This document shows positions 1-50,660 of a stretch of 64,000 nucleotides of DNA, in pieces. A program made the position numbers and the translations under genes. Source of the DNA: Chlorops oryzae (lineage: Eukaryota > Arthropoda > Insecta > Diptera > Chloropidae); contig CM035807.1 in assembly GCA_020466095.1 (NCBI GenBank), positions 17,222,985 to 17,286,984 of the forward strand, written 5' to 3'. The notes beneath the pieces are model-generated. The model was not told the DNA's origin and did no database searches. It saw only the letters and a program-made list of their open reading frames with translations. The stretch's first letter is position 1, and every line of letters starts with the position of its first letter.

Positions 1-149
1 GTTTGCGCGTACATGGCTTGTACCGTTTGTGTTGGAGGATTTATCGATAAATTGTATGGAATTGTGCAAATACTTGTAGGTCTAAGCTAATTCCCTCGGC
101 AGAGCTTGTGTTTTCGCTATACCAGTTTGTGTCCGAACTGGGTTTGTAT
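1..149. repeat. Degenerate partial linker at the array edge
   Basis: This stretch precedes the first full array unit. Its second half (about 100-149) weakly matches the array linker: words such as TTTTCGCTAT and GTCCGAACTGGGTT correspond to TATTCGCTAT and ATCTGAACTAGGTT in the linker. It is probably a diverged, truncated unit, or the end of a related repeat that continues left of the window. The first half matches nothing else here. Confidence 0.4.
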
Positions 150-3100
150 GAAAAAGCTTGTCAAAAGCTTTTGTATTCGCTATGCTAGTTGTTTGAGTCT
201 TAGCTATGCATGTTATCTGAACTAGGTTCATACGTCACGAAATTAGTGACAGAGGTCTTTGAGTGGGCGTAGCACAAAAAGTAGGCGTGGCAGAGTTACG
301 AAGTTGAACTTTTCCGACTTTGGGGCACAACATTAAGTTAAATTCCGAATGTCGGTCCCGTGGGTTCAAAATTGTGGATTTTGGAAAAACCCGTTTTCTG
401 TTTGAGGGGGTTGGGGTGGTTCGATTTCAAAAATTTTTTGGGAATCTCTTAGATCTAGAGATAGAAACGTCCATGCCAAATTTCAAAGCCCTAGGGCAAC
501 TCCTTCTATGATTTACCAAGAAATGTATGGAGTTCAAGCGCTTAACCTCCATACATTTCTTGGTAAATCATAGAAGGAGTTACCCTAGGGTCTTGAAATT
601 TGGCATGGACGCTTCTATCTCTAGATCTAAGAGATTCCCAAAAATTTTTGAAATCGAACCACCCCAACCCCCTCAAACAGAAAACGGGTTTTTCTAAAAT
701 CCACAATTTTGAACCCACGGGACCGACATTCGGAATTTAGCTTACTTTTGTGCCCCAGAGTTGGAAAAGTTCAAGTTCGTAACGCTGCCACGCCTACTTT
801 TTGTGCTACGCCCTCTTAAAGTCCTTTATCAGATATTCGTGACGTAAGAGCAGACTTAAGACGCGAACGTGAAAAAGCTTGTCAAAAGCTTTTGTATTCG
901 CTATGCTAGTTGTTTGAGTCTTAGCTATGCATGTTATCTGAACTAGGTTCATACGTCACGAATTAGTGACAGAGGTCTTTGAGTGGGCGTAGCACAAAAA
1001 GTAGGCGTGGCAGAGTTACGAAGTTGAACTTTTCCGACTTTGGGGCACAACATTAAGTTAAATTCCGAATGTCGGTCCCGTGGGTTCAAAATTGTGGATT
1101 TTGGAAAAACCCGTTTTCTGTTTGAGGGGGTTGGGGTGGTTCGATTTCAAAAATTTTTTGGGAATCTCTTAGATCTAGAGATAGAAACGTCCATGCCAAA
1201 TTTCAAAGCCCTAGGGCAACTCCTTCTATGATTTACCAAGAAATGTATGGAGTTCAAGCGCTTAACCTCCATACATTTCTTGGTAAATCATAGAAGGAGT
1301 TACCCTAGGGTCTTGAAATTTGGCATGGACGCTTCTATCTCTAGATCTAAGAGATTCCCAAAAATTTTTGAAATCGAACCACCCCAACCCCCTCAAACAG
1401 AAAACGGGTTTTTCTAAAATCCACAATTTTGAACCCACGGGACCGACATTCGGAATTTAGCTTACTTTTGTGCCCCAGAGTTGGAAAAGTTCAAGTTCGT
1501 AACGCTGCCACGCCTACTTTTTGTGCTACGCCCTCTTAAAGTCCTTTATCAGATATTCGTGACGTAAGAGCAGACTTAAGACGCGAACGTGAAAAAGCTT
1601 GTCAAAAGCTTTTGTATTCGCTATGCTAGTTGTTTGAGTCTTAGCTATGCATGTTATCTGAACTAGGTTCATACGTCACGAATTAGTGACAGAGGTCTTT
1701 GAGTGGGCGTAGCACAAAAAGTAGGCGTGGCAGAGTTACGAAGTTGAACTTTTCCGACTTTGGGGCACAACATTAAGTTAAATTCCGAATGTCGGTCCCG
1801 TGGGTTCAAAATTGTGGATTTTGGAAAAACCCGTTTTCTGTTTGAGGGGGTTGGGGTGGTTCGATTTCAAAAATTTTTTGGGAATCTCTTAGATCTAGAG
1901 ATAGAAACGTCCATGCCAAATTTCAAAGCCCTAGGGCAACTCCTTCTATGATTTACCAAGAAATGTATGGAGTTCAAGCGCTTAACCTCCATACATTTCT
2001 TGGTAAATCATAGAAGGAGTTACCCTAGGGTCTTGAAATTTGGCATGGACGCTTCTATCTCTAGATCTAAGAGATTCCCAAAAAATTTTTGAAATCGAAC
2101 CACCCCAACCCCCTCAAACAGAAAACGGGTTTTTCTAAAATCCACAATTTTGAACCCACGGGACCGACATTCGGAATTTAGCTTACTTTTGTGCCCCAGA
2201 GTTGGAAAAGTTCAAGTTCGTAACGCTGCCACGCCTACTTTTTGTGCTACGCCCTCTTAAAGTCCTTTATCAGATATTCGTGACGTAAGAGCAGACTTAA
2301 GACGCGAACGTGAAAAAGCTTGTCAAAAGCTTTTGTATTCGCTATGCTAGTTGTTTGAGTCTTAGCTATGCATGTTATCTGAACTAGGTTCATACGTCAC
2401 GAATTAGTGACAGAGGTCTTTGAGTGGGCGTAGCACAAAAAGTAGGCGTGGCAGAGTTACGAAGTTGAACTTTTCCGACTTTGGGGCACAACATTAAGTT
2501 AAATTCCGAATGTCGGTCCCGTGGGTTCAAAATTGTGGATTTTGGAAAAACCCGTTTTCTGTTTGAGGGGGTTGGGGTGGTTCGATTTCAAAAATTTTTT
2601 GGGAATCTCTTAGATCTAGAGATAGAAACGTCCATGCCAAATTTCAAAGCCCTAGGGCAACTCCTTCTATGATTTACCAAGAAATGTATGGAGTTCAAGC
2701 GCTTAACCTCCATACATTTCTTGGTAAATCATAGAAGGAGTTACCCTAGGGTCTTGAAATTTGGCATGGACGCTTCTATCTCTAGATCTAAGAGATTCCC
2801 AAAAATTTTTTGAAATCGAACCACCCCAACCCCTCAAACAGAAAACGGGTTTTTCTAAAATCCACAATTTTGAACCCACGGGACCGACATTCGGAATTTA
2901 GCTTACTTTTGTGCCCCAGAGTTGGAAAAGTTCAAGTTCGTAACGCTGCCACGCCTACTTTTTGTGCTACGCCCTCTTAAAGTCCTTTATCAGATATTCG
3001 TGACGTAAGAGCAGACTTAAGACGCGAACGTGAAAAAGCTTGTCAAAAGCTTTTGTATTCGCTATGCTAGTTGTTTGAGTCTTAGCTATGCATGTTATCT

Positions 3101-6100
3101 GAACTAGGTTCATACGTCACGAATTAGTGACAGAGGTCTTTGAGTGGGCGTAGCACAAAAAGTAGGCGTGGCAGAGTTACGAAGTTGAACTTTTCCGACT
3201 TTGGGGCACAACATTAAGTTAAATTCCGAATGTCGGTCCCGTGGGTTCAAAATTGTGGATTTTGGAAAAACCCGTTTTCTGTTTGAGGGGGTTGGGGTGG
3301 TTCGATTTCAAAAATTTTTTGGGAATCTCTTAGATCTAGAGATAGAAACGTCCATGCCAAATTTCAAAGCCCTAGGGCAACTCCTTCTATGATTTACCAA
3401 GAAATGTATGGAGTTCAAGCGCTTAACCTCCATACATTTCTTGGTAAATCATAGAAGGAGTTACCCTAGGGTCTTGAAATTTGGCATGGACGCTTCTATC
3501 TCTAGATCTAAGAGATTCCCAAAAAATTTTTGAAATCGAACCACCCCAACCCCCTCAAACAGAAAACGGGTTTTTCTAAAATCCACAATTTTGAACCCAC
3601 GGGACCGACATTCGGAATTTAGCTTACTTTTGTGCCCCAGAGTTGGAAAAGTTCAAGTTCGTAACGCTGCCACGCCTACTTTTTGTGCTACGCCCTCTTA
3701 AAGTCCTTTATCAGATATTCGTGACGTAAGAGCAGACTTAAGACGCGAACGTGAAAAAGCTTGTCAAAAGCTTTTGTATTCGCTATGCTAGTTGTTTGAG
3801 TCTTAGCTATGCATGTTATCTGAACTAGGTTCATACGTCACGAATTAGTGACAGAGGTCTTTGAGTGGGCGTAGCACAAAAAGTAGGCGTGGCAGAGTTA
3901 CGAAGTTGAACTTTTCCGACTTTGGGGCACAACATTAAGTTAAATTCCGAATGTCGGTCCCGTGGGTTCAAAATTGTGGATTTTGGAAAAACCCGTTTTC
4001 TGTTTGAGGGGGTTGGGGTGGTTCGATTTCAAAAATTTTTTGGGAATCTCTTAGATCTAGAGATAGAAACGTCCATGCCAAATTTCAAAGCCCTAGGGCA
4101 ACTCCTTCTATGATTTACCAAGAAATGTATGGAGTTCAAGCGCTTAACCTCCATACATTTCTTGGTAAATCATAGAAGGAGTTACCCTAGGGTCTTGAAA
4201 TTTGGCATGGACGCTTCTATCTCTAGATCTAAGAGATTCCCAAAAAATTTTTGAAATCGAACCACCCCAACCCCCTCAAACAGAAAACGGGTTTTTCTAA
4301 AATCCACAATTTTGAACCCACGGGACCGACATTCGGAATTTAGCTTACTTTTGTGCCCCAGAGTTGGAAAAGTTCAAGTTCGTAACGCTGCCACGCCTAC
4401 TTTTTGTGCTACGCCCTCTTAAAGTCCTTTATCAGATATTCGTGACGTAAGAGCAGACTTAAGACGCGAACGTGAAAAAGCTTGTCAAAAGCTTTTGTAT
4501 TCGCTATGCTAGTTGTTTGAGTCTTAGCTATGCATGTTATCTGAACTAGGTTCATACGTCACGAATTAGTGACAGAGGTCTTTGAGTGGGCGTAGCACAA
4601 AAAGTAGGCGTGGCAGAGTTACGAAGTTGAACTTTTCCGACTTTGGGGCACAACATTAAGTTAAATTCCGAATGTCGGTCCCGTGGGTTCAAAATTGTGG
4701 ATTTTGGAAAAACCCGTTTTCTGTTTGAGGGGGTTGGGGTGGTTCGATTTCAAAAATTTTTTGGGAATCTCTTAGATCTAGAGATAGAAACGTCCATGCC
4801 AAATTTCAAAGCCCTAGGGCAACTCCTTCTATGATTTACCAAGAAATGTATGGAGTTCAAGCGCTTAACCTCCATACATTTCTTGGTAAATCATAGAAGG
4901 AGTTACCCTAGGGTCTTGAAATTTGGCATGGACGCTTCTATCTCTAGATCTAAGAGATTCCCAAAAAATTTTTGAAATCGAACCACCCCAACCCCCTCAA
5001 ACAGAAAACGGGTTTTTCTAAAATCCACAATTTTGAACCCACGGGACCGACATTCGGAATTTAGCTTACTTTTGTGCCCCAGAGTTGGAAAAGTTCAAGT
5101 TCGTAACGCTGCCACGCCTACTTTTTGTGCTACGCCCTCTTAAAGTCCTTTATCAGATATTCGTGACGTAAGAGCAGACTTAAGACGCGAACGTGAAAAA
5201 GCTTGTCAAAAGCTTTTGTATTCGCTATGCTAGTTGTTTGAGTCTTAGCTATGCATGTTATCTGAACTAGGTTCATACGTCACGAATTAGTGACAGAGGT
5301 CTTTGAGTGGGCGTAGCACAAAAAGTAGGCGTGGCAGAGTTACGAAGTTGAACTTTTCCGACTTTGGGGCACAACATTAAGTTAAATTCCGAATGTCGGT
5401 CCCGTGGGTTCAAAATTGTGGATTTTGGAAAAACCCGTTTTCTGTTTGAGGGGGTTGGGGTGGTTCGATTTCAAAAATTTTTTGGGAATCTCTTAGATCT
5501 AGAGATAGAAACGTCCATGCCAAATTTCAAAGCCCTAGGGCAACTCCTTCTATGATTTACCAAGAAATGTATGGAGTTCAAGCGCTTAACCTCCATACAT
5601 TTCTTGGTAAATCATAGAAGGAGTTACCCTAGGGTCTTGAAATTTGGCATGGACGCTTCTATCTCTAGATCTAAGAGATTCCCAAAAAATTTTTGAAATC
5701 GAACCACCCCAACCCCCTCAAACAGAAAACGGGTTTTTCTAAAATCCACAATTTTGAACCCACGGGACCGACATTCGGAATTTAGCTTACTTTTGTGCCC
5801 CAGAGTTGGAAAAGTTCAAGTTCGTAACGCTGCCACGCCTACTTTTTGTGCTACGCCCTCTTAAAGTCCTTTATCAGATATTCGTGACGTAAGAGCAGAC
5901 TTAAGACGCGAACGTGAAAAAGCTTGTCAAAAGCTTTTGTATTCGCTATGCTAGTTGTTTGAGTCTTAGCTATGCATGTTATCTGAACTAGGTTCATACG
6001 TCACGAATTAGTGACAGAGGTCTTTGAGTGGGCGTAGCACAAAAAGTAGGCGTGGCAGAGTTACGAAGTTGAACTTTTCCGACTTTGGGGCACAACATTA

Positions 6101-9100
6101 AGTTAAATTCCGAATGTCGGTCCCGTGGGTTCAAAATTGTGGATTTTGGAAAAACCCGTTTTCTGTTTGAGGGGGTTGGGGTGGTTCGATTTCAAAAATT
6201 TTTTGGGAATCTCTTAGATCTAGAGATAGAAACGTCCATGCCAAATTTCAAAGCCCTAGGGCAACTCCTTCTATGATTTACCAAGAAATGTATGGAGTTC
6301 AAGCGCTTAACCTCCATACATTTCTTGGTAAATCATAGAAGGAGTTACCCTAGGGTCTTGAAATTTGGCATGGACGCTTCTATCTCTAGATCTAAGAGAT
6401 TCCCAAAAAATTTTTGAAATCGAACCACCCCAACCCCCTCAAACAGAAAACGGGTTTTTCTAAAATCCACAATTTTGAACCCACGGGACCGACATTCGGA
6501 ATTTAGCTTACTTTTGTGCCCCAGAGTTGGAAAAGTTCAAGTTCGTAACGCTGCCACGCCTACTTTTTGTGCTACGCCCTCTTAAAGTCCTTTATCAGAT
6601 ATTCGTGACGTAAGAGCAGACTTAAGACGCGAACGTGAAAAAGCTTGTCAAAAGCTTTTGTATTCGCTATGCTAGTTGTTTGAGTCTTAGCTATGCATGT
6701 TATCTGAACTAGGTTCATACGTCACGAATTAGTGACAGAGGTCTTTGAGTGGGCGTAGCACAAAAAGTAGGCGTGGCAGAGTTACGAAGTTGAACTTTTC
6801 CGACTTTGGGGCACAACATTAAGTTAAATTCCGAATGTCGGTCCCGTGGGTTCAAAATTGTGGATTTTGGAAAAACCCGTTTTCTGTTTGAGGGGGTTGG
6901 GGTGGTTCGATTTCAAAAATTTTTTGGGAATCTCTTAGATCTAGAGATAGAAACGTCCATGCCAAATTTCAAAGCCCTAGGGCAACTCCTTCTATGATTT
7001 ACCAAGAAATGTATGGAGTTCAAGCGCTTAACCTCCATACATTTCTTGGTAAATCATAGAAGGAGTTACCCTAGGGTCTTGAAATTTGGCATGGACGCTT
7101 CTATCTCTAGATCTAAGAGATTCCCAAAAATTTTTGAAATCGAACCACCCCAACCCCCTCAAACAGAAAACGGGTTTTTCTAAAATCCACAATTTTGAAC
7201 CCACGGGACCGACATTCGGAATTTAGCTTACTTTTGTGCCCCAGAGTTGGAAAAGTTCAAGTTCGTAACGCTGCCACGCCTACTTTTTGTGCTACGCCCT
7301 CTTAAAGTCCTTTATCAGATATTCGTGACGTAAGAGCAGACTTAAGACGCGAACGTGAAAAAGCTTGTCAAAAGCTTTTGTATTCGCTATGCTAGTTGTT
7401 TGAGTCTTAGCTATGCATGTTATCTGAACTAGGTTCATACGTCACGAATTAGTGACAGAGGTCTTTGAGTGGGCGTAGCACAAAAAGTAGGCGTGGCAGA
7501 GTATCGAAGTTGAACTTTTCCGACTTTGGGGCACAACATTAAGTTAAATTCCGAATGTCGGTCCCGTGGGTTCAAAATTGTGGATTTTGGAAAAACCCGT
7601 TTTCTGTTTGAGGGGGTTGGGGTGGTTCGATTTCAAAAATTTTTTGGGAATCTCTTAGATCTAGAGATAGAAACGTCCATGCCAAATTTCAAAGCCCTAG
7701 GGCAACTCCTTCTATGATTTACCAAGAAATGTATGGAGTTCAAGCGCTTAACCTCCATACATTTCTTGGTAAATCATAGAAGGAGTTACCCTAGGGTCTT
7801 GAAATTTGGCATGGACGCTTCTATCTCTAGATCTAAGAGATTCCCAAAAAATTTTTGAAATCGAACCACCCCAACCCCCTCAAACAGAAAACGGGTTTTT
7901 CTAAAATCCACAATTTTGAACCCACGGGACCGACATTCGGAATTTAGCTTACTTTTGTGCCCCAGAGTTGGAAAAGTTCAAGTTCGTAACGCTGCCACGC
8001 CTACTTTTTGTGCTACGCCCTCTTAAAGTCCTTTATCAGATATTCGTGACGTAAGAGCAGACTTAAGACGCGAACGTGAAAAAGCTTGTCAAAAGCTTTT
8101 GTATTCGCTATGCTAGTTGTTTGAGTCTTAGCTATGCATGTTATCTGAACTAGGTTCATACGTCACGAATTAGTGACAGAGGTCTTTGAGTGGGCGTAGC
8201 ACAAAAAGTAGGCGTGGCAGAGTTACGAAGTTGAACTTTTCCGACTTTGGGGCACAACATTAAGTTAAATCCCGAATGTCGGTCCCGTGGGTTCAAAATT
8301 GTGGATTTGGAAAAACCCGTTTTCTGTTTGAGGGGGTTGGGGTGGTTCGATTTCAAAAATTTTTTGGAATCTCTTAGATCTAGAGATAGAAACGTCCATG
8401 CCAAATTTCAAAGCCCTAGGGCAACTCCTTCTATGATTTACCAAGAAATGTATGGAGTTCAAGCGCTTAACCTCCATACATTTCTTGGTAAATCATAGAA
8501 GGAGTTACCCTAGGGTCTTGAAATTTGGCATGGACGCTTCTATCTCTAGATCTAAGAGATTCCCAAAAAATTTTTGAAATCGAACCACCCCAACCCCCTC
8601 AAACAGAAAACGGGTTTTTCTAAAATCCACAATTTTGAACCCACGGGACCGACATTCGGAATTTAGCTTACTTTTGTGCCCCAGAGTTGGAAAAGTTCAA
8701 GTTCGTAACGCTGCCACGCCTACTTTTTGTGCTACGCCCTCTTAAAGTCCTTTATCAGATATTCGTGACGTAAGAGCAGACTTAAGACGCGAACGTGAAA
8801 AAGCTTGTCAAAAGCTTTTGTATTCGCTATGCTAGTTGTTTGAGTCTTAGCTATGCATGTTATCTGAACTAGGTTCATACGTCACGAATTAGTGACAGAG
8901 GTCTTTGAGTGGGCGTAGCACAAAAAGTAGGCGTGGCAGAGTTACGAAGTTGAACTTTTCCGACTTTGGGGCACAACATTAAGTTAAATTCCGAATGTCG
9001 GTCCCGTGGGTTCAAAATTGTGGATTTTGGAAAAACCCGTTTCTGTTTGAGGGGGTTGGGTGGTTCGATTTCAAAAATTTTTTTGGAATCTCTTAGATCT

Positions 9101-11940
9101 AGAATAGAAACGTCCATGCCAAATTTCAAAGCCCTAGGCAACTCCTTCTATGATTTACCAAGAAATGTATGGAGTTCAAGCGCTTAACCTCCATACATTT
9201 CTTGGTAAATCATAGAAGGAGTTACCCTAGGGTCTTGAAATTTGGCATGGACGCTTCTATCTCTAGATCTAAGAGATTCCCAAAAAATTTTTGAAATCGA
9301 ACCACCCCAACCCCCTCAAACAGAAAACGGGTTTTTCTAAAATCCACAATTTTGAACCCACGGGACCGACATTCGGAATTTAGCTTACTTTTGTGCCCCA
9401 GAGTTGGAAAAGTTCAAGTTCGTAACGCTGCCACGCCTACTTTTTGTGCTACGCCCTCTTAAAAAGTCCTTTATCAGATATTCGTGACGTAAGAGCAGAC
9501 TTAAGACGCGAACGTGAAAAAGCTTGTCAAAAGCTTTTGTATTCGCTATGCTAGTTGTTTGAGTCTTAGCTATGCATGTTATCTGAACTAGGTTCATACG
9601 TCACGAATTAGTGACAGAGGTCTTTGAGTGGGCGTAGCACAAAAAGTAGGCGTGGCAGAGTTACGAAGTTGAACTTTTCCGACTTTGGGGCACAACATTA
9701 AGTTAAATTCCGAATGTCGGTCCCGTGGGTTCAAAATTGTGGATTTTGGAAAAACCCGTTTTCTGTTTGAGGGGGTTGGGGTGGTTCGATTTCAAAAATT
9801 TTTTGTTGAATCTCTTAGATCTAGAGATAGAAACGTCCATGCCAAATTTCAAAGCCCTAGGGCAACTCCTTCTATGATTTACCAAGAAATGTATGGAGTT
9901 CAAGCGCTTAACCTCCATACATTTCTTGGTAAATCATAGAAGGAGTTACCCTAGGGTCTTGAAATTTGGCATGGACGCTTCTATCTCTAGATCTAAGAGA
10001 TTCCCAAAAAATTTTTGAAATCGAACCACCCCAACCCCCTCAAACAGAAAACGGGTTTTTCTAAAATCCACAATTTTGAACCCACGGGACCGACATTCGG
10101 AATTTAGCTTACTTTTGTGCCCCAGAGTTGGAAAAGTTCAAGTTCGTAACGCTGCCACGCCTACTTTTTGTGCTACGCCCTCTTAAAGTCCTTTATCAGA
10201 TATTCGTGACGTAAGACAGATTAAGACGCGAACGTGAAAACCTTGTCAAAACTTTTGTTTGCTAGGATTTTTGAGTTTAGCTATTGCATTGTTATTGAAC
10301 TAGGTCAACGTCACAATTAGTGAAGGTTTTGAGTTGGGCGTAGGAACAAAAAAGGCGGGCAAGAGTTACGAAGTTGAATTTTCCGACTTGGGCAACAACA
10401 TTTGGAAATTGAAGTCGGTTCCCTGGGTTCAAATTGTGATTTGGAAAAACCGTTTCTTTTGAATTGGGTGGTTCAAAAAATTTTTGGGAATCCAACTAAG
10501 ATAGAAACGGGTTCCAAATCCAAATTTAAGGCTGGGCAAACTTTCTATGGATTTACAAAAATTTATGGATTTAACCTTAATCCATACATTTCTTGTTAAA
10601 CATAGAAGGAGTTACCCTAGGCTTAAATTTGGATGGACCTTCTTTAATCTCTAGGATCTAGAATTCCAAAAAATTTTTAAATCAAACCCAACCCTCAAAC
10701 AGAAAACGGTTTTTCTAAAACCACAATTTTGAACCCACGGGAGACATTGGAATTTAGGTTATTGAGAGTTGAAAAAATTCAAGTTGTAACGTAAAAGCCT
10801 TTTTTTTACGCCCTCTTAAAGTCCTTTATCAGATATTGTATAAAGAACTTAAACCAATAAAAATTTAAAACTTTTGATTCGTATTAGGTTTTGATTTACT
10901 TTGATGACAATTTTACGCACGAATTAGGACAAGGTCTTTGATCTAACAAAAAGTAGGGTGGCAGGTTGAATTGAATTTTCCATTTGGGGCAAAACATTAA
11001 TTAAATTCCGAATTGGTGTGGGTTAAAATTTGGATTTTGGAAAAACCCGTTTTCTTTTGAGGGGTTGGGGTGGTTCGATTTAAAAATTTTTTGGGAATTT
11101 TGCAAATGAAATCCATGCCAAATTTCAAAGCCCAGGGAATCCTTCTATGTTTCCAAGAAATGTTGGAAAGCCAACCTCCAACTTTTTGGTAAATCATAGA
11201 AGGATTACCCTATTTGAAATTTGGCATGGAGTTTTCTCTGATCTAAAATTCCCAAAAATTTTAAATCGAAAAACCCCCTCAAACGAAAACGGGTTTTTCA
11301 AAATCCCAATTTTAACCCAGGGACCGACATTCGGAATTTAGCTTACGGCCCCAGAGTTGGGTTCAAGTTCGTCGCTCCACGCCTCTTTTGTGCTACGCCC
11401 TTTAAATTTTATAATATTCGGACTAAGAGAGACTTAAGCGGAACGTGAAAAACTTGTCAAAAGCTTTTGTATTCCATGCTGTTGGAGCTTAGCTATGCAT
11501 TTACTGCTAGGTTCATACGTACGAATTAGTACAGGGCTTTTGGGCTCACAAAAAGTAGGCGTGGCAGAACGAAGTTCTTTTCCGACTTTGGGGCAAACTT
11601 AAGAAATTCCGAAGTCGGTCCCGTGGGAAAAGGGATTTGGAAAAACCCGTTTTCTTTTAGGGGGGGGGGGTTATTTAAAAATTTTTTTGGGAATTTTAAT
11701 TAGGATAGAAACTATGCCAAATTTCAAAGCCCTAGGGCAACCCTTTTGTTTCCAAGAAATTTGGGTTCCGCTTCCTCCAACATTTTTGGAAATCAAGAAG
11801 GAGTTATAGGGTCTTGAAATTTGGCAGGACCTTCTATCTCTAGATTAAGAGATTCCCAAAAAATTTTTGAAAGAAAAATAAACAGAAAAGGGTTTTTTAA
11901 AATAAATTTTGAACCCACGGGACCGACATTCAATTTTATT
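150..11940. repeat. Tandem array of about 17 inverted-repeat (hairpin) units of 720 bp
   Basis: Unit length is 720-721 bp; the word TACGTCACGAATTAGTGACA recurs at about 951, 1671, 2392, 3112, 3833, 4554, 5275, 5996, 6717, 7437, 8158, 8877 and 9596, with a one-base variant at 231. Each unit is one large dyad. In unit 1 the left arm starts at 231 and the right arm ends at about 846, with the centre near 539 at AAGCGCTT and almost no loop. Arms are about 308 bp and complementary except for scattered mismatches and small indels. A linker of about 104 bp separates hairpins. Units 1-14 are nearly identical, differing by single-base indels mostly in A or T runs near the arms. Three more hairpin centres lie near 10575, 11175 and 11770 in a degraded tail. 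A 63-codon ORF recurs in the left arm but has no sign of selection. It could be a satellite, an amplified foldback element or an hpRNA locus. Confidence 0.95.
10216..11940. repeat. Deletion-rich degraded end of the hairpin array
   Basis: From about 10216 the array changes abruptly from nearly perfect copies to copies with many 1-4 base deletions. The distance between matching landmarks falls from 720 to about 602 and 604 bp (CGTCAC near 10309, CGCACGAATTA near 10911, CGTACGAATTAG near 11515). Substitutions are few compared with losses. That is unlike normal satellite divergence and more like an uncorrected single long read joined to polished sequence. Real decay at an array edge cannot be excluded from sequence alone. 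Confidence 0.8.
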
Positions 11941-11949
11941 TTTATTTTT

Positions 11950-14900
11950 GCCAACTCCGAAATTGTGCTTGGAAAATGATCCAGAACCTCACCGCACTTT
12001 TGTTTGTAACTGTAAAATTGTTTACAATAAGATAGACGTTTTAATTGAATCATCATTAGAATAGTTTTGTAGGGCAATGAGTATATAGAAATAATATTTT
12101 TTCTTGCGGCCCCCGTTCGATCTATACACTCTTTGCCTTTAGGCATTTTAAATTCGAAAAACTTACGCTACAGCAACTTTGATTTCGGACAATGTATCCA
12201 AAATATCCAATTTCGTTACACAAATGCAAGTGTAGCCGTTCACAAGTGACGTATATTTTAGCAATGGAATATCCAACCAGCCACAACGACGCTTGCGTTT
12301 CGTAGTAACTCCGATTTCAGCTCCACGCGTCTGAAGTAGCTCACCGAATTCCTATTAAATAAAAAATTATTATTTATTTTCATTTCACGAGAATTTCATA
12401 CGAGAGAGAACCTACATTCAATTGCTCCGTTGGGAACGGGCCGTCGCCAACACGTGTCGTATAGGCTTTTACAACGCCAATAACTTCACCAATTGCTTGT
12501 GGCGGCAAGCCCAAACCGGTAAGTACGCCACCAATACTGCAATTACTGCTAGTTACATACGGATAAGTACCGAAATCGATGTCCAACATTGCGGCATTTG
12601 CGCCTTCAACCAAAATCGTTTTTCCCTGCCGCAAGGCCGTATGCAGAAAACAGACAGTATCCTTTACATAAGGTCGTACTTTCTCAGCAAAATTCTTATA
12701 GCGAGCCAATTCAGCATCCACGTCGACACGTATCGATGGGAAAAGACGCAAATGCGTAGCAACAATCGATTTGAATCTTTCAAGGGGCGAGGGAGAAGAT
12801 ATATTAATAAATTTTTACATGGTTAGATAAGTTATTTTTTAATTAGCTTGCTTACTTTTCAGAAAACAAATTGAAATCGCCCAACAACTCTCCTACTCTT
12901 ATACCGTTACGAGTTGCTTTACTCGAATACGCTGGACCGATACCCTTTTTCGTTGTGCCCAATGATTTACCACCCTTTTCGGCCTCCTGCATTCCATCAA
13001 CATCTTGATGGAAATCAAAGACCAAATGTGCACGATCTGAGATAATTAGACGCGTCTCGATTTTGTGCAAGCCCTTAGCTTCATTCTTGGATAACTCATC
13101 GAACAGGGATGGAAGATGAATCACAACGCCGTTACCTGAAAAATAAGAATTCGAAAAGAAAAAAATTTAAAAAAAGCATGTTAAAAAATGGGTTCAAAAT
13201 TTTGAGATGAAACGGTCTTTAACTCAAACTGAGGCTGCATGGCGATTATCCGCAGAGCTGGATTACAAAATTTTGATTTATTTAATTACTTATCCGACAA
13301 AATTCCCATTTTTTTTTTTTAGATGCTAAATTTAGAAGCGGCAGTATTAGTAGAATTTTTTAAGATCTTTAATTATTAATTACTTAATATTTGTGTTTTT
13401 GTTCTTCTTTAATTATCGTGTTTTTCCCAGTAAACGGATATCCGTTGCATCTCCATCGATAACACTAGTTTACAGAATTTAAAACTTTCGCGAGAGCAGA
13501 GACGGAATGATGGTTTTTAGACTAAATTTGGTCGCTGATCACGAAAATGGCATCGTTTTTTTTTCAAGAATAGTTTTTGAGATATGGGCAAAAAACGTGT
13601 TTTTTGGTACTTAATGAAATTTTGCCAAATAACTCCAAAACGGCTAGTCTAATAAATAAATTTATCAGCATGAAGCAGAAAACTTTCCCTTTGCAACGAT
13701 ATATCATTTGTTACAATCGGTGTCTATTTTGAGCTACAGGCATTGAACTTGAAAAAAGTTGACTTTTTTGGGTTTTTTTGAATTTCAAATTCATTTTAAC
13801 TTTAAGTAAAAAATTTTTTTTATTTTCGATTATAAACATATATTTAACGTTATTAGAAAACCAATTTCTTTCAATCGGTTGGAAAACAAAGAATTTATAG
13901 AGGTTTTCCAAATTTACTCAAATTTAGAGCCTTATATTGTACAAATTGGATTATTGCTTTCATGACGTTGAGTGGACCGGTTGATTTAGTACTGCGACGT
14001 CTATGAGTAAATTTCGAAAATTTATAATTCTTTGTTTTCCACCGATTGATAAAATTTATTGTTTACGAGCCGTTTTGGAGTTATTTGAAAAGTCTCGTAA
14101 GTACCCAAAAAACACGTTTTTTGCCATATCTCAAAAACTATCTTTGGAATAAAAAAACGAATGCATTTTCGTGATCAGCGACCCAAATTTAGTCTAAAAC
14201 CATCATTCCGTCTCTGCTCTTTTTTTTTGTAAACGATTATAATCGTTTTGTTCTACAATTTTTCAAAATACTTTGAATGATATAAGTATTGTTGCGCCAT
14301 TATTCTATTCATATTTAGTACTCGTTCATCACAGTAATTTATATAAATTTAAGCAAACTGCGATAAAAAGCAAAAGCGGCACTTTTAACTAACAAGATAA
14401 CGCTTTTTTTAAAAAAAAAAAAGAAAAAAGAATAAAGCCAAGAGTAACGTGATGTTTATACTGCTAAATCATTTAAGGCACATGGCAAAATGTATGGACA
14501 CAAGAGCGAGTGTGCTAGAGGAAATTCGTTCCACTACCACTACTGCTGCGGGTAATATTACTTCGACAAGTGCAAAATTTTTCATACAGTATAATTTGAT
14601 TATCTAACAAATTAGTCTTGTGACAACCGACGACATCGAGGAGTAATGAATATCAGCGAATGGTTTTAAAAAATTATCATCGATTAAACAATTGGCGAAA
14701 AAGGTTTTTTTTTTTTTTTTGAAGTTGAAATTCAATGAGTTATAAAAATAAAAAGAAAAACATTTAAAAACTATATTAAAAAGGTCGTTAAAAGATGTCA
14801 CGCAATAAGTAGATATTCATTGTCAAGTCACAATGTCATCGTTTGTTTACTTGGTACAGAGAGGGATTCCCATTATGCATTTCCTTATTTTCAAATAAGA

Positions 14901-42005: not shown

Positions 42006-42945
42006 TGACTCCGAAAATTTTTATGTATAATTTTAGGCTGAGAAACATGACTGTATAGGCTAAGAAACATTACTCCGAAATACGACGCTTAGAAAAATGA
42101 GTCGAAATTTTATATAAGGCTCAGAAAATCGACTCCGAAATAAGTCCGTAATATATTAGAGAGATGACTCTCAGAAATATGACTCCGAAACGAGACCGAA
42201 ACTTTTACCTAATATTAAGCTCAGAGACTTGACTCCGAAGGAGGTCCGAAATTTGTGAGAAATAAGACGCTCAGAAATATGACTGCTAGATGAGTTCGAA
42301 ATTTTTACTGAATATTAGGCTCAGAAACTCGACTCCGAAATACAAACATAAGTCCGAAATGTTGCAGAAATATGACGCTCAGAAATCATGCTCCGAAATG
42401 AGTTCAAAACTCATAGGCTCATAAGCTTGACTCCGAAATAAGTCCGAAATATGTGGGAAATATGATCCTCAGAAAAATGACTCCGAAATGAGTTCAAAAT
42501 TTAAAAAAGTTTTTAAGGTTCGAAAGAAATAATCACTCCGAAGTGTGTGAGAAATATGACGCTCGGAAATATATGACACCGAAATGAGTCTCGAATATTA
42601 ACCGAATGTTAGGCTCTGGAACTTGACTCCGAAAAAATTCCGAATATGAGAGAAATTTGATTCTCAGGCAAATGACTCCAAAATGATTTCAAAATTTAAA
42701 CAAAAGATAAGGCTCGAAAGCATTACTCCGAAATCTGTGAGAAATATGACGCTCGGAAATATATGACTCCGAAATGAGTCTCGAATTTTAACCGAATATT
42801 AGGCTCTGGAACATCACTCCGAAATAAGTCCGAAATAAAGCAGAAATCTGACGTCCAGAAATATGATTCCGAAATAAACACGAAATTGATAGAAAATATT
42901 TTGCTCACAGAAATGAGTCCGAAATGAGCTTAAAAATATGTCAGC
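42006..42945. repeat. Minisatellite of CTCCGAAAT units, period about 100 bp
   Basis: About nine degenerate units, each opening with GGCTC(A/T)GAAAC and containing GACTCCGAAAT, AAGTCCGAAAT and CGCTCAGAAATATGAC. Unit starts lie near 42117, 42219, 42319, 42413, 42518, 42609, 42711 and 42801. Within a unit the same half-motif recurs about every 25-50 bp. From 42518 alternate units match better than neighbours, so the array has a dimeric order of about 192 bp. It begins roughly 120 bp after the Patj-like stop. Confidence 0.85.
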
Positions 42946-44509: not shown

Positions 44510-45069
44510 ACTGCTCTAAGCTTTAACAATCGATTGAAATTACAGTGAAATCTCTCTTAAGCGGACACCTACGTGACCGAAATATACATATGTCCGCTTA
44601 AAAGAGGTGTCCGCTTAAGAGGAAACTATTTGAGACGCAGTAACACTAGATCATTCCCAAAAAGTGCCCTTTTAAGACGGGTATCCGCTTAAGAGGAGTG
44701 TCCGCAATGAAGGAGAACACTGTAATCCATTTCATTCGAAATCAAGAGACTTGGAAATTGTCATGAAAATGTCATTTCAACTGTCAGGGACAAACAACTT
44801 TCAATTAAAATCAATCCACATACGAATTCTTTGAACAACCTTTCGAATACCTGAAAGGCGAGTCGAATCGAAATGTCGGAGAATCGAGTCCAATTGCCAT
44901 CGACAGCAAAGGAAAATACGCTTATAATTTTGCTTCTGCAATTACAATTCAAAATTGCTGACATTTGATAAAATATTCAGGTATCGATTTTGAGTCGAAA
45001 CATTCGAGCCGCAAACAAAAAGAAAACAAAGGTTTTCGCAGTAAAAAATAACAATTCTTCAATAAAACA
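44510..45069 (+). repeat. Inverted pair of a 0.4-kb repeat, left copy
   Basis: Apart from the 180-bp MITE inserted at 44543-44722, this copy is the near-exact reverse complement of about 50275-50660. Best-matching words are GACTTGGAAATTGTCATG, CGAGTCGAATCGAAATGTCG and CAGGTATCGATTTTGAGTCG. The match fades outside AACAATCGATTG on one side and TTCTTCAATAAAA on the other. No ORF of interest is present. Confidence 0.85.
44543..44722. mobile_element. Pogo-like MITE with CAGTG ends, TA duplication
   Basis: A 180-bp element beginning CAGTGAAATCTCTCTTAAGC and ending GAGAACACTG, with TA on both sides. GTCCGCTTAA(G/A)AGG repeats four times in the interior. The mirror repeat near 50630 has the uninterrupted target GAAATTAATTG, proving insertion at TA. 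CAGTG with TA duplication is usual for pogo/Tigger-type elements. Confidence 0.85.
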
Positions 45070-46289
45070 TTTCTAACAAATCGAACCATTTTTTTTTTAC
45101 CCATTCGAAACCCATATCTTCACATGCTTCTAAATATATGTATATCCGTACATGCATATGTGTATAAATTTTTGATTTTGTTCGAAGAACATGCTTTGGA
45201 TTTATTTATCCCGTTGACCATATTATATTATGTATGTATGAATGTCTGCCATCGAAGGTCTGCTTTAATCCTCTCTAGCCACATGTGCCCAGGTAAAACG
45301 ATATGTTCCGAAGCTCAAGAGCGAAGGGAGGAAATTGAACAAATCAAAAAGAATCACTTGCGGTCTTAAACGTTTCCGATTGGATTTATGTTCAAGTCTG
45401 AGCGATCATAGAGCTTCAAAAGGAGCTAATTTAATAGCTTGGATTTTTTATTTCATTTTCATTTTGGTCGAAATTGAATTTTCAAAACTTTAAAATTCTT
45501 AGAAATTGAAGCAATTAAATAGCAAGGAAAAGCAATCTTGACTAGCAAACACTGATGGATTTGATTATTTTGAGCTAGTATGAGGAAAGTTTTGAGTCAC
45601 AAATATCATTAATTATTTAGTATTTTCGAATATCATTCATACAGTTAGCCAAAAGAGTTTAAACCACAAACAACAACATGTCGGATTCTTCGAAGCCAAC
45701 AAAAAAACCTTTGATTGCTGTAGTACCTAACCTAATTAAATTTTAAACAAAAACTTTAAGAATGAGAAAGTTTCAAAATATTTCAAAATTTTTTTTGTTA
45801 AACTGTCCTCTTTCATTGAAAATGTTTGCAGTGAAATGGTTTTTCTTCAATCGAGATGAAGGATATTCCTTAAGTCTTAATGAAATAATTGAACACGTCA
45901 AAGTTAAGTTCCTTATTTAAAGGTACTCATAAAATACTAAATAATTTATTTAATTAATTTGAAACAAACGATTTTCCAATCGATTAGGTAAGTTGTGCCT
46001 GCTTACCAATTATCCAAAAAAATTCAACTCATCCCAACATATCGGACCACTTTCAATCGACTGCTCTTTTGATTGTAATAGGTTGCATACATTTACATGG
46101 GTTGAGTAATTTCAGGAATTTTTGCGCTAGTGGAAGCCAGGAAACAAGAGATATTTCAGTGCCCAGATTATATTAAGACCCCTTTGTGTATTTTAAGGGG
46201 GGACCTTCTTTAAAGGGTCACATTAACAATCAGTCTGACTGAGACGTACGAAGAAGAGAGAAAAACGCTTCCAAAGATCGATTTTAGAT
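45070..46289. other. Spacer; no gene seen
   Basis: AT-rich DNA inside the 5.2-kb space between the two inverted 0.4-kb repeats. The short frames were inspected and none has a recognisable domain. Confidence 0.4.
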
Positions 46290-46620
46290 ATATTCGAAAG
46301 TAATCGATTATTTCAATAATGGGTAATATTAATAATCGATAAGTTCGATAAATCTAAAAATTGATAATTTAGATCATTTTAATAATCGATGAAATCGATA
46401 ATTTCAATAATCGATCATGTAGATATCGATAATTTCAATAACGGATAATTTCAATAATCGAAAATTGAGTAACTGATAATTTAAATAATCGATAGTTGCA
46501 ATAATCGATTATTTCGAAATTTCATGATAGATAATTACGATAGATAATTCCAATAATCGATAACTTAGATAATCGATAATCTCGATAATTTCATTAATCG
46601 AAAGCGGATATGGTCGATAT
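46290..46620. repeat. ATCGAT-rich minisatellite
   Basis: A degenerate repeat of about 15-20 bp built on AATAATCGATAATTTC. It contains at least ten ATCGAT and many CGATAA words within about 330 bp. Spacing is irregular and no unit is exact, so it is old or under weak homogenisation. Confidence 0.8.
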
Positions 46621-47385
46621 GTACAGATGCCTAAAGCTCAAAATAAACATTAATTGTGTTAGTTTGATAAGAACTGTCTTCATTTTCCCACAAATTAATT
46701 GCAAAACAGAATTTTTTTCCGACCGCTGAAAGTAGTTCTCCCTCTTCGGTCAGTCCTTAATGTTCCCTCTCCCTGCTTCGGAGACAGCTTGCGGGTCCTT
46801 AAGAGTGACCTAGCCCTTTGAAAAACTTCTAGCGTTTAATATAAGCCACACGTAAAACGGAAAATTCCGAATTCCTTACGTCAAAACTAACGGAAAATCA
46901 AAATTTTCATACAAAAAGAAAGGAGCGAAAAACTTGATGTAAATAATAACTGAAATAAATAGAAAAGGCACCAATTTCCATATTCATATGCATTTCATTT
47001 GGTTTTGGCAATTTTCCCAAAACCGCGCAATGAACTCAACCCATCATCATCATCATGATCATTATCGTCATCATTATCTGTGGTTTACGTTTTGCGTTTT
47101 GAAAATTAGAATTTATGGAAATTTCCATTTTGCTTTGAAAAGTAATTTATATTGAAAATGAAAATTCGAAAATTATTCAATAAATTATCGAATGCTGGGT
47201 TGAGAGCGGACATTGATGAAGTCTCTAAACATTTCATTAGCCATTGAAAATTATTTAAGATAAACACATTTTTCATTTTATGCATTATCCGAAAGTCACT
47301 AGAAAGACACGAGTGAAAACACCAAAGGGACTAAATTTTAAATGCAACAAAAAAAAAGAGGAAAAATTCAAATCCGATACCTTCA

Positions 47386-48420
47386 GACGCCTGAAAACTA
47401 AATTCGAATGTTAACCATTTTTCATTTTAAGCTCAATTGACTTTCGAAAAATATTCAATTTTATTTCCCAATTCAAATGGTTCCTTAAATCCGATTTGTT
47501 TATTAAAAGCTCAAATATTATTGCCGATAAATGGCTTGAAATTATGATTTCGCATCGTTTTCCACGCTCGGTTGGCAGCTTTCAAATGGGAAGCTTTTCC
47601 ACATTCACGTCTAATTATTGAAAATAAATTGTGGCATTGTTCCGATCACATTTCGTGCAATCAATATTGGGCGGGCATTTCGAATAAAAACCGTGCTCAA
47701 TGGTATGAAAAATTAATCGAAATGACGGATGGAGGAGTTTGCATGTATGGAAAATTGATGGTAAATAAAAGACTGTCATTGAAATTGTCTATAGACATAT
47801 ACATTAGGGTGTCCCACAAAAAAATTGTTTTTTGGAAACGTAGTTTTTTCGAAAGCCTATGGGTCAAAGACTTTCTTGTTAAGTCCACTCTGGTTGGGGG
47901 CCTAACCTAACTTTATACCTAACCTATTAACTGGTTCTTTTAGCACTATGAACCACACAAAGCGGAATATACCCTTCGACACAATTTCGGTAAAAAAAGA
48001 AAATTAAATTATCTCTTCAGACGCCTGAAAACTAAATTCGAATGTTAACCATTTTTCATTTTAAGCTCAATTATTAGAAAAATATTCAATTTTATTTCCC
48101 AATTCAAATGTTCCTTAAATCCGATTTTTTATTAAAAGCTCAAATATTATTGCCGAAAATGGCTTGAAATTATGATTTCGCATCGTTTTCCACGCTCGGT
48201 TGGCAGCTTTCAAAAAAATTTTCCACATTTACGTCTAATTCAGTTTAAATTGTGGAATTTTTCGTACATTTACGTGAATCAATATTAATTGGGCGGGCAT
48301 TTCGAATAAAAACCGTGCTCAATGGTATGGAAAAATTTCTCGGATGCGGTACGTTTGCATGTAATTAAATATGTATAAAAATGTCCATGAAATTGTCTAT
48401 TATAATTACATAGAGATTTA
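47386..48420. repeat. Local direct duplication, second copy deletion-rich
   Basis: Segment 47386-47800 recurs at 48017-48420. Shared words include CAGACGCCTGAAAACTAAA, TTTCCACGCTCGGTTGGCAG and TCGAATAAAAACCGTGCTCA. The first copy is longer; the second lacks many single bases and short stretches. The gap between them (47925-47990) contains a decayed Helitron 3' part with GGAATATACCCTTCGACAC. The deletion bias is the same as in the array tail at 10216-11940. Confidence 0.8.
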
Positions 48421-50274
48421 TTATCAACATTAATAAAACTTATTGCGAAAGAAAAAGAAGAAAAATGAGAGAGAGAGAGAGAGAATTTATAAGGAGTTTA
48501 ATTAAGGGTAGCTTTTAATTGAAAACACTAAGGAAATCTCTAAGGAAATCCTCATGTATGTATAACTATAATTATGAAAATTATAGAAACTTAGGCAAAA
48601 GAAGCAAGAGGCAAGGAAAAGCTTCTTTGCCCCCTTGCATTTCTTGCCATCGAACTGAATGCTCCGGAACATGTTTTAGGTATGTCTGACTCTCGAGAAA
48701 CGAGGCATTGAGGGTCACTTTCTTTCGAGTTCGAGGTAATTTTTCTAATTTGGATGGAGAATATATTACAGTGTTTATGGTCTGAGTTTAATCAAAAATC
48801 CTGTGATCATAAATCTGTCATAACTTTATATGAATTAAAAGCTATTTTTCTATATAAAAAACCTTAAGGGTTTGGAATCGAAATAATTTTGGTATCGATA
48901 TACTATGAGAAACCAATTTGTTTTGTAGAGCAAAAAGAAAATTTGTGTTATTTTTTCATACATGTATTTGTGTTATTCTCTGCACATGCCATCGATAAGA
49001 AACATTGAGTAGCACAGATGGAAATTTGAAAAATCCCATTTTATTGATATTGTTGTTTTCTTTTCTGTTTTTTTCTCACAAATATTTTCATTTCATTCTT
49101 CCGGTTTGCTTTGTCCTTTGGATTTTATATTTATTATTTATTAATTTGTTTTTCAGAATATTTTGTTTTCTATTTAAACTGTGCAAAGAGAGAATCAAGC
49201 AAGACTCAAAGTCTTATGAGCTCCGGTTTGGGAGGCATGTATGACTCCTTTAGGACTAAGAATGTGCTTGGGGGTGAATACATACGTACTCTTTAGCTCA
49301 TTAGCGAAAGTATTTTCATACATTAAAGGTCGCATTTAAAAGTTATAAAAGATCCCTTAAACTGTGAATGGTTAAATCCCTGCAGTAATATGGACTGGCC
49401 CAAGTGTAGCCTTCGGTCAGTCCTTCATGTTACCAGTACTAGTCCCCTTATAATTCCACTTCTAAATGTATTCAACTGGCCTTTTTAACATGGCCCTGTC
49501 ATTGGAGAGGGACTAGTCCGCAAAACGGCTGACCGTAGGCCCATTTTTTTTGGTGTATTGTCGTAATTTTGTCTGGTTTTACGATAGTCAAATAAGGAAA
49601 ATAAAAAACCAATTTCTTATATATATTCTAAGTTGATGAAAGTGTCATTTACAGACTACCCTCAAACCCGTTTATTACCGACCGTCGGCTAGCCGAATTC
49701 GATGGAGCAAACTGCCATAATATAACCGGTAGGATTTGGACCGGTCAAAGGCCAGTCCTTCTTAGGAAATTGGCCTGTTCTGTTCTTATTTTATTGTCCT
49801 AGCCGAAACATTTGTACATTTAAAATCGATTTTTATCGCAAAATAGAAAAGTGTAATTAAGTCGTTTTGCCGGTCAAGCACAGAATTGAATATTAAGAAA
49901 ACTAAGATTTTATATCGAAATCGAAATTTGTGTTCCATATTCTATTTCAAGACTATTTCCTTTCGCAAGCTTCTTCTTCTTTATTAACATTTTTTTTTTT
50001 TTTGATCCTAAGAAAAAAATTATTCCTTAACTATTGCCTCGAAATGAAGTTTTTTAAAGTGGATCTATGAAAGCTTTCTTCATTCATTTGAATTAAAAAT
50101 GAAAACGAAATTTTGCTAATTTTTATAGCCCAAGTATTTCGAGGTAAAGAAAATCTTTTTCATTTTAAATTGTAATCTTTTAATCTTTCCAAAGTAGAAA
50201 TTTCTTAACATTTAAGTGCCTAATCGTTTCCCGGAATCATCAAGAACGGAATTTTTCCCAGTTGAAAGCGATTT
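48421..50274. other. Spacer; no gene seen
   Basis: It contains an AG microsatellite near 48468-48483 and an imperfect dyad near 49395-49535 (GCCTTCGGTCAGTCC against GGCTGACCGTAGGCC) that may be an old MITE. Remaining sequence is AT-rich without recognisable coding. Confidence 0.4.
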
Positions 50275-50660
50275 TATTGAAGAATTGTTATTTTTTATTG
50301 CGAAAAGCTTTGTTTTTTTTTTTTGTTTTTGTTTGCGGCTCGAATGTTTCGACTCAAAATCGATACCTGAATATTTTATCAAATGTCAGCAATTTTGAAT
50401 TGTAATTGCAGAAGCAAAATTATAAGCGTATTTTCCTTTGCTGTCGATGGCAATTGGACTCGATTCTCCGACATTTCGATTCGACTCGCCTTTCAGGTAT
50501 TCGAAAGGTTGTTCAAAGAATTCGTATGTGGATTGATTTTAATTGAAAATGTTTGTCCCTGACAGTTGAAATGACATTTTCATGACAATTTCCAAGTCTC
50601 ATGACTTCGAGTGAAAATAAAAATTCTTCATCAATTAATTTCAATCGATTGCAAAAGTTC
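50275..50660 (-). repeat. Inverted pair of a 0.4-kb repeat, right copy
   Basis: This is the reverse complement of 44510-45069 without the inserted MITE. The pre-insertion site reads AATTAATTTCAATCG on the plus strand. The two copies lie about 5.2 kb apart in opposite orientation and are nearly identical in the core. Confidence 0.85.

Follow-up and report, generated by a model that had tools for sequence, protein, structure and literature searches.

The tandem array of long hairpins at the left end of the window (the whole 64,000-nucleotide stretch analysed here, C2:17222985-17286984) is best explained as one member of a foldback-type repeat family, dispersed and apparently non-coding, in what is probably a schizophoran fly, a reading to which we assign a probability of about 0.75. 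The array is an ordinary kind of repeat, real and with an unusual unit, and on its right side an assembly fault is probable. The genome searched for related sequences comprises 442 Mb, and loci elsewhere in it are referred to below by L numbers.

Anatomy of the array and its units

Seventeen units of approximately 721 bp apiece run head-to-tail from about position 160 to about position 11960 of the window, in agreement with the initial annotation, which had described a tandem array of about 17 hairpins; each clean unit is palindromic. The array has the following features:

79..148, + strand: left terminal module, common to other repeats; in inverted orientation with respect to the right array flank in L016
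160..10244, + strand: 14 clean tandem units of 719-721 bp
216..538, + strand: 5' arm of the palindrome in unit 1 (unit positions 57-379; consensus coordinates transferred, +/- 1-2 bases)
539..861, + strand: 3' arm of the palindrome in unit 1 (unit positions 380-702; consensus coordinates transferred, +/- 1-2 bases)
10245..11960, + strand: three further units with deletion-dominated damage; right end unreliable

The 14 clean units are 99-100% identical to the consensus. Each of units 1-13 differs from their own majority consensus by 0-2 substitutions and 0-6 indel columns, with six of the 13 (u3 and u5-u9) matching the majority sequence exactly; unit 14 differs from the consensus by 2 substitutions and 4 indel bases. 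Consensus polishing may be a partial cause of the near-perfect likeness among units 5-9. An almost loop-free palindrome spans unit positions 57-702 of every clean unit, and the arm layout given for unit 1 holds for the other clean units. The unit length of about 720 bp proposed at the outset stands, but the arms, first put at about 308 bp, are somewhat longer at 323 positions, comprising 295 Watson-Crick pairs, 8 G.U pairs (303 standard pairs in all) and 20 mispaired positions in the consensus. At its left edge the array runs on into the terminal module at about 79-148.

As RNA, one unit of the + strand folds into a hairpin with a 14-nt loop and an energy of -544 kcal/mol (shuffle mean -184, 20 shuffles, z -56), and one unit of the - strand reaches -524 kcal/mol (shuffle mean -175, 20 shuffles, z -66). 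By both the folds and the pairing count, the unit is a long inverted repeat capable of forming double-stranded RNA (dsRNA). These long, near-perfect hairpins on both strands lend weight to the idea that the element family, rather than this locus, is an incidental source of endo-siRNAs or piRNAs, its dsRNA being processed and acting to silence that same family. Transposons and inverted repeats are named as siRNA sources in D. melanogaster in PMC3890300 and PMC5392987. Such incidental production, which is compatible with the foldback explanation, is a serious possibility that falls somewhat short of even odds.

Across the window, Rfam returned 0 matches at gathering score. A phage-derived origin was considered and rejected, window positions 100-900 being without a match, as was a coding unit, the single frame of at least 90 aa that lies fully within the array being 90 aa long. 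A 124-aa frame at 11796-12167 crosses the join with the neighbouring adenylosuccinate synthetase gene (AdSS).

The near-identity to the consensus extends to units 1-14 but not to units 15-17, which are riddled with deletions (107, 129 and 103 bases across 73, 96 and 69 events, respectively). The same three units carry 22, 0 and 5 inserted bases and 11, 3 and 0 substitutions. Pairwise, they have 26, 16 and 22 deleted sites in common, compared with 20.2, 17.1 and 20.2 expected from a simple product; since this sharing is close to the chance expectation, the deletions look mostly independent. We read the damage as a consensus-quality artefact, resembling poor long-read consensus. Biological decay was rejected as an explanation because deletions dominate in these units, whereas in diverged arm copies substitutions exceed deletion events (33:6 in L026, 29:8 in L033 and 20:4 in L032, with 15, 20 and 4 inserted bases, respectively). 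Units with comparable damage are contained in L009 and L023, and the L015 array includes 100 consecutive N, which mark either a gap or withheld sequence.

Dispersal, edge units and end modules

The unit is present in at least 12 other arrays, four on C1 and eight on C2 by manual grouping, a count that is a lower bound, with 12 of 998 first-look candidates scored. These arrays span 2.3 to 12.8 units (n=12) compared with 17 in the window, and internal tandem repeats of variable number are one of the traits by which foldback elements were recognised here. Unit identity in the other arrays is 92-99% for units without heavy deletion damage. A 33-base arm motif gave 342 + 356 = 698 genome matches at up to 3 mismatches (a single unit may score once or twice), and a 22-base terminal motif gave 1102 at up to 1 mismatch; the reversed control of each motif gave 0. 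The arm-motif matches listed are scattered at many places on two contigs of 173 and 118 Mb, and the exact sites among them include C2 7.6, 17.0, 80.6, 82.2, 89.0 and 97.1 Mb. Diverged single arms also occur at other places. Because the array is one of many dispersed and similar arrays, descent from a transposon-like foldback repeat is most likely, and a single regulatory RNA gene is improbable.

Edge units were compared with interior units in a set of 75 (more than 90% identical to the consensus and covering unit positions 60-655, with damaged units excluded). At four sites, a base carried by 7, 7, 8 and 7 of the 10 right-edge units was found in only 0, 2, 2 and 1 of the 65 others; the right-edge units were marked by hand, and that of L015 adjoins the N run. 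Mean unit distance was 0.9% within an array, 3.2% between arrays and 6.1% between edge units, with L016/L017 and L019/L020 counted as separate loci though each pair represents the two ends of one array. Given that the edge-unit bases are rare in interiors and that the distances follow this pattern, the edge units and tails look, as judged from sequence, old and common to loci, and the interiors young and homogenised.

The left terminal module of the window matches L016 over 62 bp (87%, E 9e-15), with shorter matches also to L058, L065, L026 and L009, and the left flank of the window matches the right flank of L016 in inverted orientation over 56 bp (87.5%, E 4.6e-12). A tail is common to 6 of 13 right flanks (L011, L014, L018, L019, L021 and L022). 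When flanks were compared, omitting the right flanks of L012/13 and L015 (array units or N), 7 of 13 left flanks matched a right flank inverted, versus 4 of 13 in a direct-orientation control. The direct matches comprise L009, which has end modules in both orientations and tails that match both ways, L017, where the piece is itself palindromic, and L011 and L023, which match other repeats. Since L009 and L017 match both ways, two of the seven inverted matches are uninformative and five remain; left flanks that match tails only inverted are those of the window, L012/13, L014, L020 and L023. Six of the 13 left flanks have no inverted end, and no inverted end module was found in the right flank of the window. 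Inverted ends at both sides of one array occur in 2 of the 12 other arrays, over short lengths only (82 bp in L014 and 74 bp in L019/L020).

The terminal motif is found in array units, in flanks and in a palindromic MITE that occurs solo, at about 166 bp, in L029, L030 and L041, and terminal sequence in common with a MITE is a further trait by which foldback elements were recognised. A literature search with the MITE end sequence returned unrelated results only, among the matches listed. L027, L034, L038, L039 and L043 contain another kind of repeat, about 1.1-1.5 kb long, whose inverted ends are near CGCACAGTGCTTCG and in which a MITE piece is nested at the same internal place.

The dispersed arrays, common inverted end modules and common edge variants support the amplified foldback satellite that the initial annotation had offered as an alternative. 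A plain satellite that arose as an inverted dimer and was dispersed in short arrays, with no mobile element involved, would agree with homogenised interiors and a variable copy number, but it is an unlikely source of end modules that are common to loci and inverted in at least five flanks, of the same edge variants at different chromosomal places, and of the link to a solo MITE. It is also important to note that common edges could stem from segmental duplication too, as at L021/L022, where the right flanks match over 2.3 kb and the two loci are therefore not independent.

Other repeats were also observed in the window. Inverted arms of about 340 bp at 44730-45067 and 50272-50616, 5.2 kb apart and 99% complementary over 232 bp, resemble the termini of a young DNA transposon; two frames in or at the edge of this putative transposon (44730-50616) had no Pfam match. 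ATCGAT-rich degenerate tandem repeats at 46324-46589 and in the right flank of L023 perhaps belong to one family, and at 42112-42837 a GACTCCGAAA-like motif underlies tandem repeats of 50/100/190 bp.

The hairpin-RNA question and the AdSS junction

PMC10317233 describes fly hairpin RNAs (hpRNAs) as loci that give rise to Dcr-2-dependent siRNAs and whose complementary targets number one or a few. According to passages of the same source, they may be tandem, dispersed (hp70, four copies) or derived from transposable elements (hp-ODox2), so that repetition alone is no refutation of hpRNA function; for hp-CG4068 the copy number is 20 in D. melanogaster and 9 in D. simulans (PMC10317233). The array had been put forward as a candidate hpRNA locus, and the strength of the one-unit folds on both strands, a tandem copy number like that of hp-CG4068, and the precedents of transposon-derived arms and dispersed copies all speak for that proposal. 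However, only the shape of the fold points to hpRNA function. Compensatory change was no greater than in shuffles (6 compensatory pairs versus a shuffle mean of 5.6, and a paired fraction of 0.9334 versus 0.9335, using one unit from each of 13 loci and shuffles that do not preserve relatedness). Of the pairs affected by rare alleles, 31 are broken, 10 are restored and 21 stay as they were, and G.U pairs show no strand bias (G.U versus A.C mismatches 8 to 5, p 0.58). In addition, the arms match nothing else within the window at E <= 1e-3, and a homologue search with a 65-aa arm frame, a weak test with one frame, was empty.

The dispersal of the unit also counts against this proposal. By our own yardstick an hpRNA would occupy few loci, yet the arm motif has hundreds of dispersed matches and the unit recurs in the arrays described above. 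These hundreds remain well below the millions of heterochromatic copies that the initial annotation had named as grounds for abandoning the hpRNA reading. Taken together with the failure of the proposed AdSS read-through (see below), these results make an hpRNA locus very unlikely, its fold shape being the part of the proposal that holds.

AdSS lies on the - strand, and its exons match PF00709. Two exons lie next to the array:

11945..12010, - strand: start of the last AdSS coding exon (about 22 codons), cut by the array junction; about 58 codons missing
12166..12351, - strand: AdSS exon, PF00709 positions 278-340

The last exon opens at about 12010 after a splice acceptor and, about 22 codons on, turns into array sequence; joined to the preceding exon, it matches adenylosuccinate synthetase with an E of 1.1e-28 (PDB 2v40). 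AdSS is 92% identical to that of Lucilia cuprina, 91% to that of Musca domestica and 89% to that of Teleopsis dalmanni, with none closer in the best 120 of 7991 matches; these identities point to a schizophoran fly. The final 58 or so codons were not found in the window or in the 9984 bases to its left (tblastn with the Lucilia protein), and PF00709 profile positions 341-416 had no genome match at E <= 0.001. All five genome matches to PF00709 (E <= 0.001) lie at the AdSS locus, and thus no second AdSS gene is seen. The initial placement of the array directly downstream of AdSS is not borne out, as the array joins inside the last coding exon; the accompanying argument for read-through transcription from AdSS fails as well, since the junction falls within an exon and next to damaged sequence.

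Because AdSS codons are missing and the junction lies within an exon beside damaged units, the join between the array and AdSS, together with the three damaged units, is most likely an assembly fault, which renders the array-AdSS distance, the junction and the copy number at this locus unreliable. Genuine insertion of the array into the last AdSS exon, truncating the gene in the sequenced animal, would fit a junction that as assembled falls inside the exon, but it is hardly credible when the remainder of the exon is absent both beyond the array (in the 9984 bases left of the window and up to the window's end) and genome-wide for PF00709 at E <= 0.001, and when 1.7 kb of deletion-riddled sequence adjoins the junction. 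Hard-to-assemble arrays seem to have damaged the model of a housekeeping gene here, which serves as a practical warning for annotation. To the left of the window, at a distance of about 1.1-1.3 kb, visual reading shows a frame that resembles ribosomal protein S20. Between AdSS exons, window positions 13493-14220 hold a foldback-like inverted repeat (arms of about 103 bp, 74%), to which the array consensus has no match.

Proposed history and comparison with known elements

Under the foldback explanation, the 721-bp palindromic units of an element would stand in tandem between end modules, whose matched parts measure about 55-220 bp. In several cases the modules on opposite sides are apparently inverted to one another, and they are made partly of the same pieces as the MITE. 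Elements with the old edge unit and tail would have spread to many places, whether by transposition, with a transposase supplied from elsewhere, or by duplication. The divergence pattern suggests that interior units may then have expanded at each site, with unequal exchange or gene conversion making them homogeneous. Any transcripts of the units would form long dsRNA and may incidentally feed the siRNA pathway. In a bolder version, the dispersed arrays of units with 640-bp palindromes would act as a distributed source of long dsRNA, and siRNAs against a mobile foldback element, and perhaps against the host, would arise at many sites from the element itself. This version seems quite unlikely.

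Galileo and FB foldback elements have modular inverted ends with internal repeats, an arrangement that the array described here appears to share, a likeness drawn from description. The best anatomical match is Tetris of D. virilis and D. americana, an apparently nonautonomous foldback-like element whose inverted-repeat ends are common with the MITE DAIBAM, as described in PMC4079207. Its internal TIR-220 tandem repeats vary in number and have expanded into arrays (610 repeats in 69 contigs; PMC4079207), and the match in MITE-sharing termini and internal tandem arrays is one of description. In contrast to the 721-bp unit, which is itself palindromic, TIR-220 repeats measure about 220 bp and lie inside the inverted arms. 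Passages of the same source place the amplification of Tetris in beta-heterochromatin and give target-site duplications of 8-10 bp, whereas here an exact flank pair was present in 1 of 5 solo MITE copies (TTATG at L029, and none at L025, L030, L036 or L041), the comparison covering solo copies.

The gadMor-hAT-1784 repeats of Atlantic cod are likewise tandem MITE-derived inverted repeats, with 600-bp inverted ends and no transposase in the description given by PMC12368964. They differ in having units of 167-169 bp, in being called hAT-derived and in lying at inversion breakpoints (PMC12368964). The array also resembles hp-CG4068 in its tandem long inverted repeats and variable copy number, but passages of PMC10317233 report for hp-CG4068 siRNAs that are lost in dcr-2 mutants and a target, mus308, whereas the present unit, described from sequence, is genome-dispersed. 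Among the matches listed in a search of the literature on palindromic or MITE-derived satellites, no case was closer than Tetris and the cod MITEs.

This fly probably adds a further example of tandem arrays that grew from a foldback-type element, an unusual one in that every unit forms a long palindrome on its own. Should the family prove to be transcribed, it would lend itself well to asking whether the siRNA pathway is fed by palindromic repeats dispersed in a genome.
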